A DNA stretch of 29,935 nucleotides. Origin: a virus. Both the position numbers and the translations under genes were made by a program. The stretch spans positions 1 to 29,935 of the IMG/VR virus record IMGVR_UViG_3300050122_000171, one strand, 5' to 3'. Position 1 is the first letter of the stretch. Each line of letters begins with the position of its first letter. This document shows, in pieces, positions 323 through 7,250 of this stretch. Under the pieces are notes generated by a model. That model was not told the origin of the DNA. It did no database searches and worked only from the letters and a program-made list of their open reading frames with translations.

Positions 323-1709
323 TCGTGATGGTGCTATAAAACTTCTGATCAAGGGAGAGCAGTCCGCGCAAGACAAATCGGCACCGACCAATGCCGACCA
401 CGCTTATCAGTTGCTTGCGAGCGCTTGCTACGCCGATCCCACCTTCGCGCATGCTTTCTACGTCAACGGCTGCACCGCTTCCGACCTGAACCGTCCGCAC
501 GCCTCCGTCGCCCTGTTTCGTCGCACGCTGGAAGGCGAGCAGACACCGAACGAGCGCCACAAGAGCTTGACCAATCTGGCGTGGGAGCTCATGAAGGTGG
601 GGAACCACCGGGAGGCCGTCGGATACCTGCACGAGGCAATCGACCTCGAACCGAAGTCCGCCCTGCCCTGGATGCACCTGGGTCTTGCGCATACGGTGTT
701 TGGCGAGACCAAGACCGCGGTATCGTGTGCTCGCAAATGCTTCGAATTGTCCGACCCCAACGACGGTGCCGGGTACGCGATTGCCGAATTCCAGCTGGCG
801 TTCGCGCTGCTGTTCGATCGCCAGTATGCCCTTGGCCTGAAGCATTTCGAGTCACGCTTCGCGGCCCGACTGCCGAACTTCCTCCTCTACCCCTATCCGA
901 AGTGGCGAGGCGAACGTGACAAAACTCTTTTCCTGGTGGCGGATCAGGGTCTCGGCGACACACTATCCTATTCGAGGTTCGTCGAGCAGGCTTCAAGGCG
1001 ATGCAGGCATGTGTTCATGTGTGTGCAGAGTGAACTGCGGCGCGTATTTGAACACGCCTTCCGGCACCTGGATAATCTTACTTTCCTTCCCTCGCCCTCG
1101 AATTTTCCCGGTAACGCTGATGCTTGGTCGACATTCGTCTCCCTGCCATTCGCTCTTGGCTTGTCAGACGACGAAATAAAGTCGGCGCCGAACATCGACA
1201 TGCCGCGACCGCCGCTGTCGAACCAGTGGAAGGTGCCGGATCGGAAATTCCACATCGGCATCGCATGGGCCGGCAGCCCGCTGAACGACATCGACAAGCA
1301 CCGCAACATTCCGATCCACCACTTCATGGAACTGTACCGCGTTCCCGGAATTCAGCTATACTCGCTGCAGGTTGACGCCAAAAAAAGTGACTTGAATCTT
1401 TGGGGTTTTGCGCCTTTAATTCGCGACCTTTCAGGATACATCCGAGATGTCGCAGACACGGTCTCGATTTTACAGTCACTCGACTTGGTCATTACCGTCG
1501 AGTCAGCGCTTGGCCACATCTGCGCCATGTCCGAGTTTGAGCACTGGGTCGGCTATAGTTGGCTGGGGAGAGATTACCGAGCAGGATCCACTGGGGATGC
1601 CCATCTATGGACCCCCCGCGCAAGGTTCTTCCAGCAATCCGACGACATGCGATGGGAGCCTGTGTTCGAGCGAATCGTCGAAGCGTTGAGGGAGAAGGTG
1701 CATGGCTGA
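315..1709 (+). CDS. TPR protein with a C-terminal glycosyltransferase-like (GT-B) domain
   Basis: This 464-residue protein starts at GTG 315, overlapping the upstream stop. Residues about 27-145 form tetratricopeptide-like helix pairs (for example NLAWELMKVGNHREAVGYLHEAI and MHLGLAHTVFGETKTAV, described here only in part). Residues about 205-460 match the GT-B-type domain that often follows TPRs in bacterial proteins. The signs are ADQGLGDTLSYSRF near 209-222, GIAWAGSPLNDIDKHRNIP at 315-333 and DLVITVESALGHICAM at 390-405. The last corresponds to the family's usual D-T-x-x-x-H-L motif, with E in place of D. Members of this group are annotated as glycosyltransferase family 9- or 41-like. A plausible role is sugar modification of a virion or host-surface component, but donor and acceptor are unknown. 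It ends in an 8-bp overlap with the KTSC gene. Confidence 0.75.
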   Translation: MGDRDGAIKLLIKGEQSAQDKSAPTNADHAYQLLASACYADPTFAHAFYVNGCTASDLNRPHASVALFRRTLEGEQTPNERHKSLTNLAWELMKVGNHREAVGYLHEAIDLEPKSALPWMHLGLAHTVFGETKTAVSCARKCFELSDPNDGAGYAIAEFQLAFALLFDRQYALGLKHFESRFAARLPNFLLYPYPKWRGERDKTLFLVADQGLGDTLSYSRFVEQASRRCRHVFMCVQSELRRVFEHAFRHLDNLTFLPSPSNFPGNADAWSTFVSLPFALGLSDDEIKSAPNIDMPRPPLSNQWKVPDRKFHIGIAWAGSPLNDIDKHRNIPIHHFMELYRVPGIQLYSLQVDAKKSDLNLWGFAPLIRDLSGYIRDVADTVSILQSLDLVITVESALGHICAMSEFEHWVGYSWLGRDYRAGSTGDAHLWTPRARFFQQSDDMRWEPVFERIVEALREKVHG

Positions 1710-1929
1710 CGGCAGTTGGATGAAATCCGTTTACTCCGACATGGTCGCCGAAGTCGGCTGGGATCCGGAGCAGGAAGAACTTATCGTTCGCTTCAAAAAG
1801 AACGGCAAGACCGCCGCCTACAAGGGCTTCGACGAAGGCACCGCCGAGCAGCTATCGAAAGCGCCGTCGGTCGGATCGATGTTCCTGTCGGAAATAAAAC
1901 CTTTTGCTGCGAGTTGGCGTTATGTCTGA
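1702..1929 (+). CDS. KTSC-domain protein
   Basis: A 75-residue single-domain protein whose ATGGCTGA start overlaps the stop of the TPR gene. The sequence follows the KTSC pattern: an S-x-x-V-x-x-VGWD start, hydrophobic strands LIVRFKKNGK and AAYKGF, then LSKAPSVGSMF and an I-K-x-F end. This short domain is named after the C-terminus of some lysyl-tRNA synthetases and also occurs alone in many small bacterial and phage proteins. Its biochemical role is not established. It lies in a coupled run of small genes upstream of the terminase. Confidence 0.6.
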   Translation: MADGSWMKSVYSDMVAEVGWDPEQEELIVRFKKNGKTAAYKGFDEGTAEQLSKAPSVGSMFLSEIKPFAASWRYV

Positions 1930-2182
1930 AGAACAACCGACCGACGAATCCGAAAAGCGCGCCCTCCTGTTCGAGGACATGGCCCGCCAGATCCGGCTCA
2001 ACAAGGACGTCAAGTTCGGTGGCGCCTTCCTGGTGTGCCCGCCGTCCGACGGCGAGCCGTTCCAGTCGCTGATGCTGGGTCAGGAAGAGGCATCGATCTT
2101 CTGGGGCGCCGTCAAGACGCTGGCCGAGGTCGCCATGCAGGCGCTTGATCCGCGCAATGCCCAAGGCTTCCGAGGGCGCTAA
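1922..2182 (+). CDS. Hypothetical phage protein
   Basis: Taking ATG 1922 as the start gives 86 residues and an 8-bp ATGTCTGA overlap with the previous stop, the same coupling used by its neighbours. An upstream in-frame start at 1904 is less likely. The protein begins with a charged segment (SEEQPTDESEKR) followed by a compact hydrophobic region (GGAFLVCPP, ASIFWGAVKTLAEVAMQAL). I recognise no family. Its TAA stop at 2180-2182 lies inside the target duplication of the adjacent insertion sequence, so the element landed at the gene's last bases without changing its product. Confidence 0.65.
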   Translation: MSEEQPTDESEKRALLFEDMARQIRLNKDVKFGGAFLVCPPSDGEPFQSLMLGQEEASIFWGAVKTLAEVAMQALDPRNAQGFRGR

Positions 2183-2206
2183 CATGGGGATTATCCGGTT
2201 GACACC
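2177..2206 (+). repeat. Left end of the IS: target duplication plus inverted repeat
   Basis: CGCTAACAT at 2177-2185 is repeated directly at 4967-4975. The 21 bases at 2186-2206, beginning GGGGATTATCCGG and ending GACACC, are the exact reverse complement of 4946-4966. IS1595-family elements normally make 8-bp duplications, so GCTAACAT (2178-2185) is the likely true duplication. The ninth base is then either chance or an extra terminal C at the right end. Confidence 0.95.
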
Positions 2207-2426
2207 ACAACGCACCATAGATAGTAACAGCCCCGTTTCGGACCTTTCCGAAGCTGGCGCGCCCGATGAAATCGAAGTGACTGAGGAAATGATTGCCGCA
2301 GGCGAAGGAGTTATTCTTTCTTGCGGCCTTCATCCGTCCGTGGCGGTCCCAACCTGGGAGGCGGATTTGGCAGTTTCGGTCTATCGGGCCATGGCAGCTT
2401 TTCTTGTGCCCAAGCCAGATCAATAG
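2184..2426 (+). CDS. Small IS passenger ORF of unknown function
   Basis: The frame beginning at ATG 2184 encodes 80 residues, but the ATG is formed from AT of the target duplication and G of the IS end. The first residues (MGIIRLTP) are therefore encoded by the inverted repeat. The native start inside the element may be TTG 2199, GTG 2277 or ATG 2289. The core, IEVTEEMIAAGEGV then WEADLAVSVYRAMAAF, resembles small 'T-x-E-M-I-x-AG...Y-R-A-M' proteins seen in phages and alphaproteobacteria, of unknown function. Its last 116 bases lie antisense to the 3' end of the HEPN-like gene, so one of the two 3' ends may be less constrained. Confidence 0.4.
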   Translation: MGIIRLTPQRTIDSNSPVSDLSEAGAPDEIEVTEEMIAAGEGVILSCGLHPSVAVPTWEADLAVSVYRAMAAFLVPKPDQ

Positions 2427-3012
2427 CCAATGTGTAGTCACGAAGGATAACAACCCGCTGCCGCGCGTATTCAAACTCGGCCAGCAAATCCATGCGCTGC
2501 TTATTGATGCGAGTAGACCGGGCATTACCCATTAAAGATTCGGCGAAAATGCCGCTGGCGATTTCCAGCAGCGAAGCCAGCGGCCCGCCCGTCCACGGAG
2601 GAGAATAACCAAGGGGAGTGTGGGCCGCGTCGTCACGAAAGCCTTCCAATTCCCTGACCTTGGACAGTATCCAAGTTACCTCTGACTTCAGTTTTAGGCG
2701 GCTACCGATCTCGCCATCGGGAACCTCGTTAATGGCTGCTTCGAGTAATTGCCGTTTTCCTGCGTCATTTCTGACCGTATTCCATAGCGCGGCTGGGCGA
2801 TTGATAAATCCGCCTCCCAACGCAGATACGAATAGAAGTGCCATCTTCTCGTGCAGGTCGTTCCAAGAGAGAAGCAATTGGCCTATCGCCTTCGCATACG
2901 GCTCGAATTCTTTTTCGGTAAATTCGTGTCTTTGGGACCATTTGTGAGCGCGTATTCTCGCAAACCATCTGGCTAGAGGCGCGCGCAAATCGGTGCTATC
3001 ATCGTCGGCCAT
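2311..3012 (-). CDS. HEPN-like protein, IS passenger
   Basis: With ATG at 3012 the protein has 233 residues. It contains a helical region with AIGQLLLSWNDLHEKMALLF at residues 42-61, GGGF...LWNTVRNDAGKRQLLEAAI around 66-94, and KVRELEGFRDDAAHTPL at about 118-134. RDDAAH (126-131) is an R-x4-H motif of the kind that forms the RNase site of HEPN proteins. Similar 'AWNDLHE...R.D.AH' proteins are common, mostly unnamed, in Alphaproteobacteria. HEPN proteins often act in toxin-antitoxin or defence modules, but catalytic activity here is inference. The C-terminus (from about 205) is proline- and charge-rich. Its ATG shares the bases CATG (3010-3013) with the divergent gene at 3011. Confidence 0.6.
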   Translation of the reverse strand: MADDDSTDLRAPLARWFARIRAHKWSQRHEFTEKEFEPYAKAIGQLLLSWNDLHEKMALLFVSALGGGFINRPAALWNTVRNDAGKRQLLEAAINEVPDGEIGSRLKLKSEVTWILSKVRELEGFRDDAAHTPLGYSPPWTGGPLASLLEIASGIFAESLMGNARSTRINKQRMDLLAEFEYARQRVVILRDYTLAIDLAWAQEKLPWPDRPKLPNPPPRLGPPRTDEGRKKE

Positions 3013-3181
3013 GAGCAAACCGCCTGAAAAATTCAGCGAGAAGGAAAGCCAAAAACGCTTCGAAGCGGCGCTTAAGGGCGCGCGCCTTGCTGGGCACAAA
3101 CCGATGGAAAGTCTGACCCGGAAGACTGCTAAGGTGCAACCAAAGAAGCGCAGTAAACCCGGGGATAAAAATGGCAGATGA
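3011..3181 (+). CDS. Short basic protein, IS passenger
   Basis: A 56-residue protein, MSKPPEKFSEKES at its start, then RFEAALKGARLAG and a Lys/Arg-rich tail (KKRSKPGDK). This 'PEKFSEKEA..RF.AAL+GA' style is familiar from small hypothetical proteins in Alphaproteobacteria, with no function known to me. The start ATG (3011-3013) overlaps the minus-strand ATG of the HEPN-like gene. A GTG at 2993 could extend the protein by six residues but fits the family pattern less well. Its stop overlaps the start of the membrane protein gene by 11 bp, so those two form a coupled pair and could be a small basic partner and a membrane protein working together. Confidence 0.55.
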   Translation: MSKPPEKFSEKESQKRFEAALKGARLAGHKPMESLTRKTAKVQPKKRSKPGDKNGR

Positions 3182-3542
3182 TGAACCAGTCTTATCCACT
3201 ACGCAGGTCGCGGGAGTTGCCTACGCGGGCATAGGGTATATTTTCGGTGGCGTTGTTGGAATCGCGACATTCATCGGCGCGTGGGCCTATTGCGTGATGA
3301 CCTACGGGTTTGTGCTGGGCTTAGGTCTCGGCTGGTTTCCCGCTGCGATCTGCGCCGGAATTGTCGGTTGGGCGACGGTGTTGCTTTGGGGGCCAGCACT
3401 TTTTATTTCGGTCGGATTTATAGGCTTGGTGCTTATATTCGCCGTTGGCCCGAATTTAAGTCTTGTCGCCCATCTTGCCCTCGGCGCAGCATGCGGATGG
3501 TTGGTGTGGCGCGTGTGCCCGCCATGGCTTAGAGGAAAATAG
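3171..3542 (+). CDS. Multi-pass membrane protein, IS passenger
   Basis: The 123-residue protein is almost entirely hydrophobic after residue 12. Four segments look membrane-spanning: about 12-38 (Gly/Ala-rich), 43-65, 67-90 and 93-113. It ends in a short basic tail (WLRGK). I recognise no family and see no catalytic motif. Its ATG overlaps the 3' end of the preceding small gene. Together with the HEPN-like gene it makes a cargo of one possible RNase and one membrane protein, a pairing also seen in some defence modules, though nothing in the sequence proves such a role. Confidence 0.6.
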   Translation: MADDEPVLSTTQVAGVAYAGIGYIFGGVVGIATFIGAWAYCVMTYGFVLGLGLGWFPAAICAGIVGWATVLLWGPALFISVGFIGLVLIFAVGPNLSLVAHLALGAACGWLVWRVCPPWLRGK

Positions 3543-3545
3543 AAA

Positions 3546-3571
3546 TCGCCCCGGACTGGCATCCGAGGCGA
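3546..3571 (-). terminator. Probable intrinsic terminator for minus-strand transcription
   Basis: A 9-bp stem (3546-3554 with 3563-3571) encloses an 8-base loop. Read as minus-strand RNA it pairs completely, with one G-U, and is followed by a T-rich stretch (TTTCTATTTTCC). Read on the plus strand it has a C-A mismatch and no T-run. It therefore points leftward and sits about 60 bases after the stop of the minus-strand ORF 3633-3863, supporting that ORF as the transcribed one. Confidence 0.55.
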
Positions 3572-3632
3572 CTAAAAACGAGAGACCGTTGCGCGATCCG
3601 GTTTGTAATTTAACCGGAGTGGTTCGCGATGT

Positions 3633-3863
3633 CTACATCCCATGACTTTTTATCGAATCGAAAAGCTGTCGAATGGAATCCTGTGTCAGAGGAACAACCA
3701 ATTCATATCCGCCCTCTAGCTGGAGGCGGAGTTGAGGTGGCGCTTTACTCGACCCAAGGGATACCCCTAGACATCGGATTGCATCGGGAGTCCGATACGT
3801 CCCCGGAAGACCAAGTTCGGCGAGTGGCGGCATATCTGGCGGCGAGTCATCGATGAGCTTCAT
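3633..3863 (-). CDS. Small hypothetical protein, IS passenger
   Basis: The ATG at 3863 gives 76 residues and is preceded on its own strand by AAGGGGAAACGAAA, a good ribosome site; an upstream in-frame start would add ten residues. The protein has SPPDMPPLAELGLPGTY at the N-terminus and a strand-like C-terminal half, LRLQLEGGYELVVPLT then DSIRQLFDSI, in the style of small proteins with one beta-hairpin and a final helix. Family unknown. It lies just downstream of the transposase on the same strand and is followed by a leftward terminator. The plus-strand ORF 3629-3856 covers the same bases and is the alternative. Confidence 0.5.
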   Translation of the reverse strand: MKLIDDSPPDMPPLAELGLPGTYRTPDAIRCLGVSLGSSKAPPQLRLQLEGGYELVVPLTQDSIRQLFDSIKSHGM

Positions 3864-3929
3864 TTTCGTTTCCCCTTGCGCTTCGCACGCCATCGCAGAA
3901 AGCGTTTCGCTTGCCTTCTGAAGTCGGGC

Positions 3930-4907
3930 TTAGTGACGCCCCCGATACGTCAAACGCTTGCCAGCGGCATTCTTGATGGCAAGTGTTCGCCGTTCCCCAT
4001 CGTCAATGCCAAGCGCGATGCGGTTGGAGTATCTAAAATCGAACTCGCTCAAATAGCGGTGCAGATGCTTCTCAGCACAATGCTGATAAGTGCCTTTCAT
4101 GCCGCGCTTGAAGATCGAATAATAGCCCTCAACCGTGTTGGTGGTGATAGTCGTAGTCTCGACAATCGGCTTGCTATCGGGGCGCAGTTTATCGGTCACT
4201 GTGTTCCAATAGCGGACATACTCATCCTTGCTATGGTTCACAGCATCGTGGCTGACAAATTCGCGGCCAACTTCTTTGTAGGAAGTGTGTTCGTCGGTCA
4301 TGAGGCCGCTTTCCTTGGCGATGTTCGCCTTTAGGATCGGCGCAATATCGGCAATCGACGTGCTGTCGATATGGAAACTGCGGGCAGAACCGCCGCGCTC
4401 AACTAGCGTCAAAACGATATTCTTGTTGGACCAGCCGCGCTTGCCCGTCTTGGGCTGGCCTTCCAGATAACCAATATAGGTTTCGTCCGCTTCCACGACC
4501 TTGCCACCGCCGCCCATCGGGCTCAGGCCCCCAACACGCATTGCCTCACGGATGCGGTGAGCCATGAACCACGCGGCCTCGTAGCCAATCTGGAGGGTAC
4601 GATGCAGTTGATGGGCGGAAACGCCTTTCTTGCTGGAAGTCATCAGGTGGAAGCCCTGTAGCCACTTGTGCAGGGCGATCTTGGACCGTTCCATTACGGT
4701 TTTCATGGTGACCGAGAAGTCTTTGCGGCAACCCTTTTCGGCGCACCGGAACACGCCCGGGCGCTTGGTCTTGTAGGCGTGGTTGACCACGCCGCAGTGG
4801 GCGCAAACCGGACCATCCGGCCACAGAATGCTTTCCAGCATCGCCCGGGCGGCTTCGTCGTTCTGGAAGTGCGGTTCGGCGAAAAGTGATTTTTGGGCCA
4901 TGACCAT
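3930..4907 (-). CDS. IS1595-family transposase (ISXO2-like DDE type)
   Basis: The 325-residue protein moves the surrounding element. Residues 35-60 form the N-terminal zinc ribbon typical of the family (Cys35, Cys38, Cys55, Cys60). The ISXO2-like nuclease domain spans roughly 130-285 and shows the acidic residues: D141 in EADETYIG, D205 in MTDEHTSY, and the N/E motif in NTVEGYYSIFKRG (257-269). The length matches IS1595-family transposases and the frame is intact, so it may be active. The first ATG is 4907; a second ATG at 4901, in frame, has better spacing from AAAGGA. The initiation region lies in a small hairpin. Confidence 0.95.
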   Translation of the reverse strand: MVMAQKSLFAEPHFQNDEAARAMLESILWPDGPVCAHCGVVNHAYKTKRPGVFRCAEKGCRKDFSVTMKTVMERSKIALHKWLQGFHLMTSSKKGVSAHQLHRTLQIGYEAAWFMAHRIREAMRVGGLSPMGGGGKVVEADETYIGYLEGQPKTGKRGWSNKNIVLTLVERGGSARSFHIDSTSIADIAPILKANIAKESGLMTDEHTSYKEVGREFVSHDAVNHSKDEYVRYWNTVTDKLRPDSKPIVETTTITTNTVEGYYSIFKRGMKGTYQHCAEKHLHRYLSEFDFRYSNRIALGIDDGERRTLAIKNAAGKRLTYRGRH

Positions 4908-4923
4908 CGTCCTTTGATGGTCA
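4901..4923 (-). promoter_or_regulatory. Stem-loop over the transposase ribosome-binding site
   Basis: TGACCATC (4901-4908) and GATGGTCA (4916-4923) are perfect 8-bp inverted repeats around a 7-base loop. On the transposase mRNA the loop is AAAGGAC, which holds the likely Shine-Dalgarno bases. The downstream arm carries the first ATG (4907) and reaches the first base of the second (4901). Folding would limit access to the start codons. Regulation by this hairpin is inference. Confidence 0.5.
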
Positions 4924-4945
4924 AAATCTACATCTTGAACCTTGG

Positions 4946-4975
4946 GGTGTCAACCGGATAATCCCCCGCTAACAT
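4946..4975 (+). repeat. Right end of the IS: inverted repeat plus target duplication
   Basis: Bases 4946-4966 are the exact reverse complement of 2186-2206, and CGCTAACAT at 4967-4975 repeats 2177-2185. Removing 2186-4966 and one repeat copy rebuilds a continuous phage sequence in which the TAA stop of the 1922-2182 gene is followed by CATCCCCGACAG. Confidence 0.95.
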
Positions 4976-5333: not shown

Positions 5334-7250
5334 ATGGCAGGTTGGTCCCACGAGAAACGAGTGGCGTTTGAGGAGGCGTTTTATTCCTATTTGAACAGCT
5401 GCGAGATCAATTCCAAGGATCACGGCGAGCCTATCATTCTCGGCGCGCACCTGATGTACGGCCAGAAGGTGTTCGTCACTGCGATCTTCGACGGTCTTGA
5501 AAATGATATTCATGATTTTTTCTGCCTTAAAAGTCGGCAGCTGGGCATCACAACCATCATCAGAGCGCTATGCGCCTTCTTCCTCGGCGTTCATCGCGGA
5601 CTTACGGGCGTCCTTGTTTTCGATACCAACGAGAACAAAAACCTCGCTCGTGACGAACTCGTAACTATTATCAAAGCGCTTCCCGCCCGGTTGAAATTCC
5701 CCGGTATTGGAAAAGACAATCGCGACGGTTTGACGCTTACCAATTCGTCCAAAATTCTGTTCAAGTCGGCTGGCATCAAGAAAACGAAAACTTCCGGAAC
5801 GCTAGGCAGATCGGTCGGCGCGTCCCTGGCGCACCTATCGGAAATTTGCTCGTTCGATAACGAAGAAGGGTTGGTCTCGTTTCAGGAGTCGCTGTCCGAC
5901 GTCAACCCAAACCGATTGTACATTCGCGAATCCACCGCTCGCGGTCCGAATATGTGGAAGCGCATGTGGGATACAGCGCGTAGCGATACACTGCATTGCG
6001 TTTGTGTCTTCATCGGCTGGTGGGCCAAGGATAGCCACCGCATCGACCGCACCGAACGCGATTGGGAATTCTACGGCGTCCAGCCGCCGACCCATGAGGA
6101 ACAGTACAAGATCGACCTCGTCAAGAAGCTCTACAATTTCGACGTAAGCCCGGAACAGCTGGCGTGGTATCGCAGGGCTATGGATCCCGCTTCGTCGGAG
6201 GAAGGCGATGTCGAAGCTGGCTTCGAGGCGAGTTCGTTCCAGAAGCAGGAGCAGCCATGGGATGAGGAAGAAGCTTTCCAGATCACCGGCAGCATCTTCT
6301 TCGCTGGCGAAAGCCTCAAGGATCAATCCGACAAGTGGGTGAGTAAAAAATTCGTGCCGTATATGTTTTTGGGCGGCGCCGAATTTTCCGACATGAAAAT
6401 TTACAAGGCCGAAAACACTCGTAATATCGAATTGAAGGTTTGGGATCCGCCGGCCAGAGAGGCGATCTACATCGTCAGTATCGATCCGGCGTTCGGAGAG
6501 AACGAACACAATGACAGATCGGCCATCCAGGTATTGCGCTGCTACGCCGACGGCATTGACCAAGTCGCCGAGTATGCGTACCCGCTGATTTCAACCAAAC
6601 ATCTTGCGCATGCCGCAGCGGGCATCATGGCATGGTACGGCAATGAGCCGTTCAACGAAATTTACTACATCCTCGAGATCAACGGCCCCGGCGGTGCGGT
6701 GCTTCAGGAATTGAAATCGCTTAAATTCCAGATCGAGAACGGCTACGCTCCGATGGAGGAGCAGGGCCTGAAGAATATTTTTGTCAATGTAAAACAGTTC
6801 ATCTATCAGCGTCCGGATTCGTTGTCAGGAGGCGGCTCGGCATGGCATTGGAAAACTAGTTCGGCACTCAAGGTGGTTATTTTCGAGGAATTGCGCGGCT
6901 TTGTCGGCAACGGACAGTTTCGAATCCGGTCCCACGACCTGATCGAGGAAATGAAAACGATTGCCCGCGACGGCGACACCATCGAGGGTGAGGGCGGCGG
7001 GGCCCACGACGATCGAGTGATGGCAGCAGCGATGGGCACCCACTACTGGGATTCCAAGATCCGGCGTAACCTGATCATGCAAAAGCGGACGAGAGAGGCG
7101 GAAAAGGTAAAAATCCAGCGCTCGGTCATTGACCAGACCGTTTTGTTCAATCAGAACATGATGTCGGCGTTCATGGGAACCAAGGCCAAGTCCCGGGTTC
7201 AGCAACAGCAACTGGCGATGAAGAACGCGTGGCGCTACGGACGGAGATAG
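5334..7250 (+). CDS. terL: Terminase large subunit
   Basis: The 638-residue packaging motor cuts concatemeric phage DNA and drives it into the prohead. The ATPase half shows the terminase-type Walker A, KSRQLGITT (residues 66-74), in which Arg-Gln replaces the classical GK pair, and a Walker B-like LAHLSEI near 165-171. RESTARG at 198-204 is a likely coupling motif. The C-terminal nuclease has three acidic sites: SIDPAFGENEHND with D384, EINGPGG with E448, and GGAHDDRVMAAAM with D559/D560. Length and order are normal. The gene is followed after one base by the zinc-ribbon gene and then the portal. No small-subunit gene is recognisable nearby. The start has no strong ribosome site. Confidence 0.95.
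   Translation: MAGWSHEKRVAFEEAFYSYLNSCEINSKDHGEPIILGAHLMYGQKVFVTAIFDGLENDIHDFFCLKSRQLGITTIIRALCAFFLGVHRGLTGVLVFDTNENKNLARDELVTIIKALPARLKFPGIGKDNRDGLTLTNSSKILFKSAGIKKTKTSGTLGRSVGASLAHLSEICSFDNEEGLVSFQESLSDVNPNRLYIRESTARGPNMWKRMWDTARSDTLHCVCVFIGWWAKDSHRIDRTERDWEFYGVQPPTHEEQYKIDLVKKLYNFDVSPEQLAWYRRAMDPASSEEGDVEAGFEASSFQKQEQPWDEEEAFQITGSIFFAGESLKDQSDKWVSKKFVPYMFLGGAEFSDMKIYKAENTRNIELKVWDPPAREAIYIVSIDPAFGENEHNDRSAIQVLRCYADGIDQVAEYAYPLISTKHLAHAAAGIMAWYGNEPFNEIYYILEINGPGGAVLQELKSLKFQIENGYAPMEEQGLKNIFVNVKQFIYQRPDSLSGGGSAWHWKTSSALKVVIFEELRGFVGNGQFRIRSHDLIEEMKTIARDGDTIEGEGGGAHDDRVMAAAMGTHYWDSKIRRNLIMQKRTREAEKVKIQRSVIDQTVLFNQNMMSAFMGTKAKSRVQQQQLAMKNAWRYGRR

Follow-up and report, generated by a model that had tools for sequence, protein, structure and literature searches.

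A recently inserted IS1595-family transposon in a phage genome carries a conserved small gene head-to-head with an exchangeable HEPN-like gene

The IMG/VR virus record IMGVR_UViG_3300050122_000171 (29935 bases, analysed over its full length and hereafter called the window) contains an autonomous IS1595-family transposon of 2781 bp, at 2186-4966, which entered its phage population very recently. Beside the transposase the element carries a small basic gene, here called SHORT, which is a constant companion of the transposase in related elements, and head-to-head with SHORT, their start codons overlapping, a gene for a HEPN-like protein that occupies a slot filled by different genes in other elements. 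The interpretation we favour, with about as much doubt as belief, is that SHORT and the antisense layout restrain a swappable HEPN ribonuclease (RNase) which would be used for defence or persistence.

The ends of the element are inverted repeats pairing at 24 of 25 nucleotides (the sole mismatch is at position 22, the first 21 being perfect), and the flanking target duplication, CGCTAACAT, is 9 bp long. The corresponding empty site was found in a near-identical phage, contig L098 (IMGVR_UViG_3300050119_000427), which has a single CGCTAACAT. When the flanks of the window are joined they match L098 at 150/150 bp across the junction. Identity is 100% for 2334 bp on the downstream side and 99.0% for 484 bp on the upstream side, and the filled allele exceeds the empty one by 2790 bp, that is, the 2781 bp element plus the 9 bp duplication. 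The existence of this empty allele rules out a chance origin of the ends and the duplication, and since its flanks are near-identical and the junction exact, the insertion is a real and very recent event in the phage population to which the window and L098 belong. An assembly chimera was rejected, as both the empty allele and the duplication are clean; a transposase-only insertion sequence with unrelated neighbours was rejected as well, because the inverted ends enclose the cargo. A preliminary description, made from the letters of the window alone, had predicted a complete IS1595-family element with several passenger genes in a phage, having 21 bp perfect ends, an 8-9 bp direct repeat, two thirds of its length outside the transposase and an empty form lacking the element and one repeat. 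All of this is borne out, the part outside the transposase (2186-3929) making up 63% of the element, and no phage relative was found to carry the cargo without the ends, the relatives lacking both.

Assignment to the IS1595 family rests on profile matches of the transposase to PF12762 (4.7e-31), PF12760 (1.4e-13) and NF033547 (3.6e-52), all exceeding the cut-offs. PF12762 and NF033547 identify the IS1595-type DDE domain and PF12760 the N-terminal zinc ribbon, a domain missing solely in the IS1016 group of this family (PMC8101967); the terminal inverted repeats agree with the assignment. The usual target duplication in the family is 8 bp (PMC8101967), which is also the length in nearly all relatives of the element (rarely 9), while the 9 bp of the window are fixed by the empty site.

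We compared the element with 94 related loci, 80 in bacterial genomes and 14 in viral contigs, from a group that is widespread and mainly alphaproteobacterial. About 37 of them have recognisable complete ends, for a total length of 2.0-4.6 kb, and every one of these bounded copies holds at least about 1 kb of DNA that does not belong to the transposase gene and lies for the most part downstream of it, so that carrying additional genes is normal here and ends enclosing a transposase alone did not occur. Besides HEPN-like proteins, the cargo includes DUF3800 (six cases), Vsr, C5 methylase, MT-A70, PIN, NYN, GmrSD_N, Schlafen AlbA, HNH and ion-channel domains. The cargo of the window, which the preliminary description took as possibly new, is one among many swapped within a widespread group. 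DUF3800-type cargo is frequent (L012, L039, L065, L081, L067, L068), in several cases head-to-head with SHORT, and the ends of one IS1595-type element (L069, 6237-9544) enclose a compact restriction-like cargo made up of a C5 cytosine methylase, a GHKL ATPase and a Vsr endonuclease.

SHORT or a relative of it is present in more than 80 of 95 loci. It comes in two types: SHORT-A, with the signature '..E..xRF.AAL..AL.TPPKP' and a Lys/Pro-rich tail, stands alone in 38 loci, SHORT-B, with the signature 'QSERF.EAARELxADE..FE...K', in 41, and a single locus has both; among the other 15 loci, several either encode yet another diverged form or are truncated where the contig stops. Matched against each other with hhalign, the two types give P=6.8e-5 (probability 64%). 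In 19 genomes searched whole, which had been picked for carrying the transposase, 22 of 23 SHORT-A matches have an IS1595 transposase at a distance of about 2.2 kb or less. The same holds for 190 genomes sampled evenly from the class where, the centre genome left aside, all eight SHORT-A matches with E<1e-5 are at most 3.4 kb from such a transposase, weaker SHORT matches being mixed in this respect. Six close pairs differ mainly at the third codon position (71/60/142 at positions 1/2/3), so SHORT is very probably translated; against known families it gave marginal Pfam matches only. Conservation across the loci thus identifies SHORT as a gene of the element and a fixed companion of the transposase, rather than the free cargo for which its short basic product had been taken in the preliminary description.

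The gene facing SHORT behaves differently. Across 23 elements, the distances between transposases correlate with those between SHORT proteins (Mantel r=0.46, P=0.0005), whereas no correlation with HEPN distances is seen for either the transposase (r=-0.03) or SHORT (r=0.00). The nearest transposase (L004, 84% identity) goes with a partner only 24% identical to that of the window, and the nearest HEPN relative found (L144, 48%) goes with a transposase 43% identical and a different SHORT subtype. The same SHORT family also faces unrelated partners, namely DUF3800 (L012, L039), HNH (L019) and others (L064, L086). These comparisons establish the effector gene head-to-head with SHORT as exchangeable, and since members of the same HEPN subfamily occur without SHORT or transposase in the stretch examined (L145, L152, L153, L155), the genes that occupy the slot seem to be drawn from a larger pool.

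This pattern bears on a first alternative, that of a toxin-antitoxin addiction module in which SHORT would be the protein antitoxin of a HEPN toxin and the pair would stabilise the element. Such a module would be in keeping with a small basic protein encoded next to a predicted RNase, with conserved adjacency and overlapping starts. However, SHORT follows the transposase and not its partner, which makes a classical antitoxin less likely; the exchange of partners opposite one SHORT family and the different SHORT subtype beside the nearest HEPN relative speak against it too, as does the divergent layout, toxin and antitoxin genes normally being co-directional and not head-to-head. We regard this explanation as unlikely.

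In the window the two genes share a CATG palindrome that contains both start codons, in opposite directions. A palindrome shared in this way by both ATGs was found in 24 of 33 testable pairs, against about 5 expected and a maximum of 15 in 200,000 simulations, a comparison in which the pairs share ancestry (and are hence not independent), the start codons are predicted, and the pair of the window, read separately, is not counted. It also occurs with non-HEPN partners (L019, L064). Because the start codons overlap, the ribosome-binding region of each gene is antisense to the other gene.

The proteins encoded opposite SHORT are about 160-280 amino acids long and begin at the SHORT start. A motif R[NDHEQ]-x3/4-H is present in 28 of 34 of them, against about one in seven for a random protein of 200 amino acids by our rough estimate. 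The R and H are invariant in 30 aligned partners (alignment A1), most of which were selected for the motif, so that the invariance is partly due to selection; unlike it, the high fraction of partners with the motif is not a product of such selection. HEPN domains are recognised by Rx4-6H with a polar residue after the R, located at the end of helix 3 and the start of the loop to helix 4 (PMC3710099). The partner in the window has R126-DDAA-H131, with a polar residue after the R, and in an AlphaFold model (a helical bundle; predicted local distance difference test 78.6, predicted template modelling score 0.75) the motif closes a helix (102-131) followed by a loop (132-143), as in HEPN proteins. 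Two partners match Pfam MtlR (best 2e-5), the profile of one partner subfamily matches the MtlR structure PDB 6kcr (E=2.4e-4), and MtlR belongs to the HEPN families (PMC3710099). The HEPN-like character proposed earlier for the protein of the window is thus upheld by the motif and its position, and not by any significant profile or fold match; the protein is predicted to be an RNase.

A second alternative is plain hitchhiking, in which passengers would be caught at random and have no function for the element, the HEPN-like proteins being used otherwise or inactive. Passenger genes were already known in IS1595 members (Siguier, Gagnevin & Chandler 2009, as cited in PMC12888890), the cargo described above is diverse and exchangeable, and members of the HEPN subfamily are found outside elements, all of which agrees with hitchhiking. 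On the other hand, one motif in the same head-to-head place in 28 of 34 partners is far from a random sample of genes, and reading frames have stayed open across very diverged copies, so this alternative too strikes us as improbable. That SHORT is solely an accessory or regulatory protein of transposition (a DNA-binding helper of the transposase, for instance), with an independently regulated cargo as its partner, would fit its near-universal presence, its tracking of the transposase and its basic character with a Lys/Pro-rich tail, yet leaves the recurrent start overlap unexplained and seems very unlikely.

If the reading in which a fixed SHORT gene and the antisense layout restrain an exchangeable RNase is correct, the element could work as follows. 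The transposase would be expressed from a promoter within its own end. With the starts overlapping, any leader of SHORT would lie across the coding region of the effector gene and vice versa, and the two transcripts, overlapping at the 5' ends, could restrain each other. SHORT, being basic and tracking the transposase, might regulate the element and would not be a partner-specific antitoxin. Where the restraint failed, because another phage infected the cell or the element was lost, the HEPN RNase might cut RNA and arrest the cell, and an anti-phage or persistence benefit to the carrier would keep the element under selection. Several observations weigh against this reading. The HEPN-like protein of the window matched no family in Pfam, NCBIfam, PHROG or PADLOC, and a Foldseek search of its model against PDB gave nothing with E<0.001 and poor alignments, so that no fold match is claimed. 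HEPN identities are about 10-34%, which limits the power behind the absent correlation between HEPN protein and transposase. PADLOC matched cargo and flanking genes alike, with no separation or enrichment, and SHORT-A and SHORT-B are no better than probably homologous.

Table 1. Features of the element and its insertion site (window coordinates)
Feature	Position	Strand	Basis
Target-site duplication, left (CGCTAACAT)	2177..2185		Sequence; one copy only in empty allele L098
Small open reading frame (ORF) with EVTxEMxxAG core, distal end; frame crosses the inverted repeat, start uncertain	2184..2426	+	Relatives in same place
Terminal inverted repeat, cargo (distal) end	2186..2210	+	End pairing
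Possible weak inward promoter, distal end: TTGACA 2199-2204, N17, TAGTAA 2222-2227	2199..2227	+	Box counts in ends
HEPN-like partner, 233 aa, Rx4H motif R126-H131	2311..3012	-	Motif, alignment, AlphaFold model
CATG, divergent overlapping starts: HEPN-like CAT 3010-3012 (-), SHORT ATG 3011-3013 (+)	3010..3013		Sequence, pair comparison
SHORT, basic element-linked protein, 56 aa; alternative start GTG 2993	3011..3181	+	Conservation across loci
Very hydrophobic protein, 123 aa, probably multi-pass membrane, downstream of SHORT	3171..3542	+	Sequence
Alternative small ORF overlapping 3633-3893	3629..3856	+	ORF list
Small ORF, 86 aa, between transposase and SHORT	3633..3893	-	Inferred; similar by eye to same-place ORFs in L022, L018
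IS1595-family transposase, 325 aa, Zn ribbon + DDE, open, full length	3930..4907	-	Profile matches
Putative transposase promoter in end: TTGACA 4953-4948, N17, TAGATT 4930-4925	4925..4953	-	Box counts in ends
Terminal inverted repeat, transposase end	4942..4966	-	End pairing
Target-site duplication, right (CGCTAACAT)	4967..4975		Sequence; empty allele

As to the remaining features (Table 1), a TTGACA-like box stands at position 14-15 in 35 of 38 transposase-side ends, and a -10 box of at least 4/6 follows in 19 of 38, compared with 5.9% of random positions. As these counts exceed those at random positions, the transposase promoter is probably inside its own end; in the distal ends a -10 box of this quality was found in 8 of 38, only modestly over background, and a promoter there is possible but weak. 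Relatives of the small distal ORF occupy the same place in L025, L013, L021, L046, L004, L006, L031 and L144, and no homologue of the membrane protein was found in the related loci compared. Of the two overlapping ORFs near 3.6-3.9 kb, the one on the minus strand looks more plausible.

The phage identity of the window is supported by a terminase gene (5334-7250), for which 249 genomes from the family to which the host of the nearest transposase belongs gave one weak match only. The element inserted at the end of a small phage ORF (1904-2182) just upstream of the terminase gene, and this ORF is unbroken because the left duplication includes its TAA stop. Related phages differ in gene content between the homologue of this ORF and the terminase, so the element entered a variable region: the interval holds 1-5.5 kb of differing genes in L099, L106, L107, L112, L114, L115 and L119, among them genes for HNH-like, lysis-like and long tail-like or repetitive proteins. 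In L107 (6740-7897), L112 (5628-6545) and L104 (3284-4378), the phage protein just upstream of the terminase contains a unit of about 20 amino acids ('KAIFKPAISEAASAADTVTA') repeated in tandem, with a copy number that varies among phages. Identity between the window and L098 jumps near window position 1700-1710 (L098 1296-1485), from about 70% up to 1708 to 99-100% after 1702, which suggests a recombination boundary lying between the TPR-protein and KTSC genes. An exact-match search of IMG/VR for the inner inverted repeat found no second contig; blastn with the element gave no match in phage records and transposase-level matches only in plasmids, and tblastn with the HEPN-like protein none in plasmids.

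Passenger genes of insertion sequences are usually taken as accidents; here the combination of a fixed companion with a single effector slot is met repeatedly in very diverged elements, so that the exchange of cargo and the way it is controlled can be put to a direct test, with the overlapping start codons as a concrete regulatory hypothesis. The window and L098 form a natural pair of filled and empty phages, recording the movement of such an element into a phage, and suggest that small IS1595 elements of this kind act as shuttles for nuclease-like cargo between bacteria and phages. It is possible, though we put it forward tentatively and with considerable doubt, that a large alphaproteobacterial IS1595 group is specialised in carrying exchangeable defence effectors of the nuclease type, in which a transposon-owned basic protein and a start-overlap switch would silence any effector, let elements trade effectors under one control unit and carry them into phages.

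With the IS1595 family the element shares its zinc-ribbon and DDE transposase, inverted ends, 8-9 bp duplication and passenger genes; the conserved SHORT companion and head-to-head effector slot of its group are not described in the searchable literature, and open-access papers (subscription papers being outside the scope of the search) held no link of IS1595 to HEPN cargo and no description of SHORT, the head-to-head layout or the HEPN slot. With HEPN superfamily RNases, including MtlR-like, Abi_2/AbiF and HepT proteins (PMC3710099), the protein of the window has in common the Rx4H motif, the polar residue after the R, the place of the motif at a helix end before a loop and a helical bundle, and differs in lacking a significant family or fold match and an MNT antitoxin beside it. 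HEPN/MNT toxin-antitoxin pairs (PMC7641770) are likewise two-gene units including a HEPN protein, but no gene for an MNT nucleotidyltransferase antitoxin lies within 2186-4966, the neighbour is no nucleotidyltransferase and the two genes diverge. Finally, a phage-encoded AbiF with an RNA regulator (PMC12373285) differs from the transposon-borne arrangement of the window, where a protein gene, SHORT, stands head-to-head with the effector and antisense restraint is our inference; it resembles that arrangement in that a prophage encodes an effector of the Abi_2 type (HEPN class) which is restrained by RNA.

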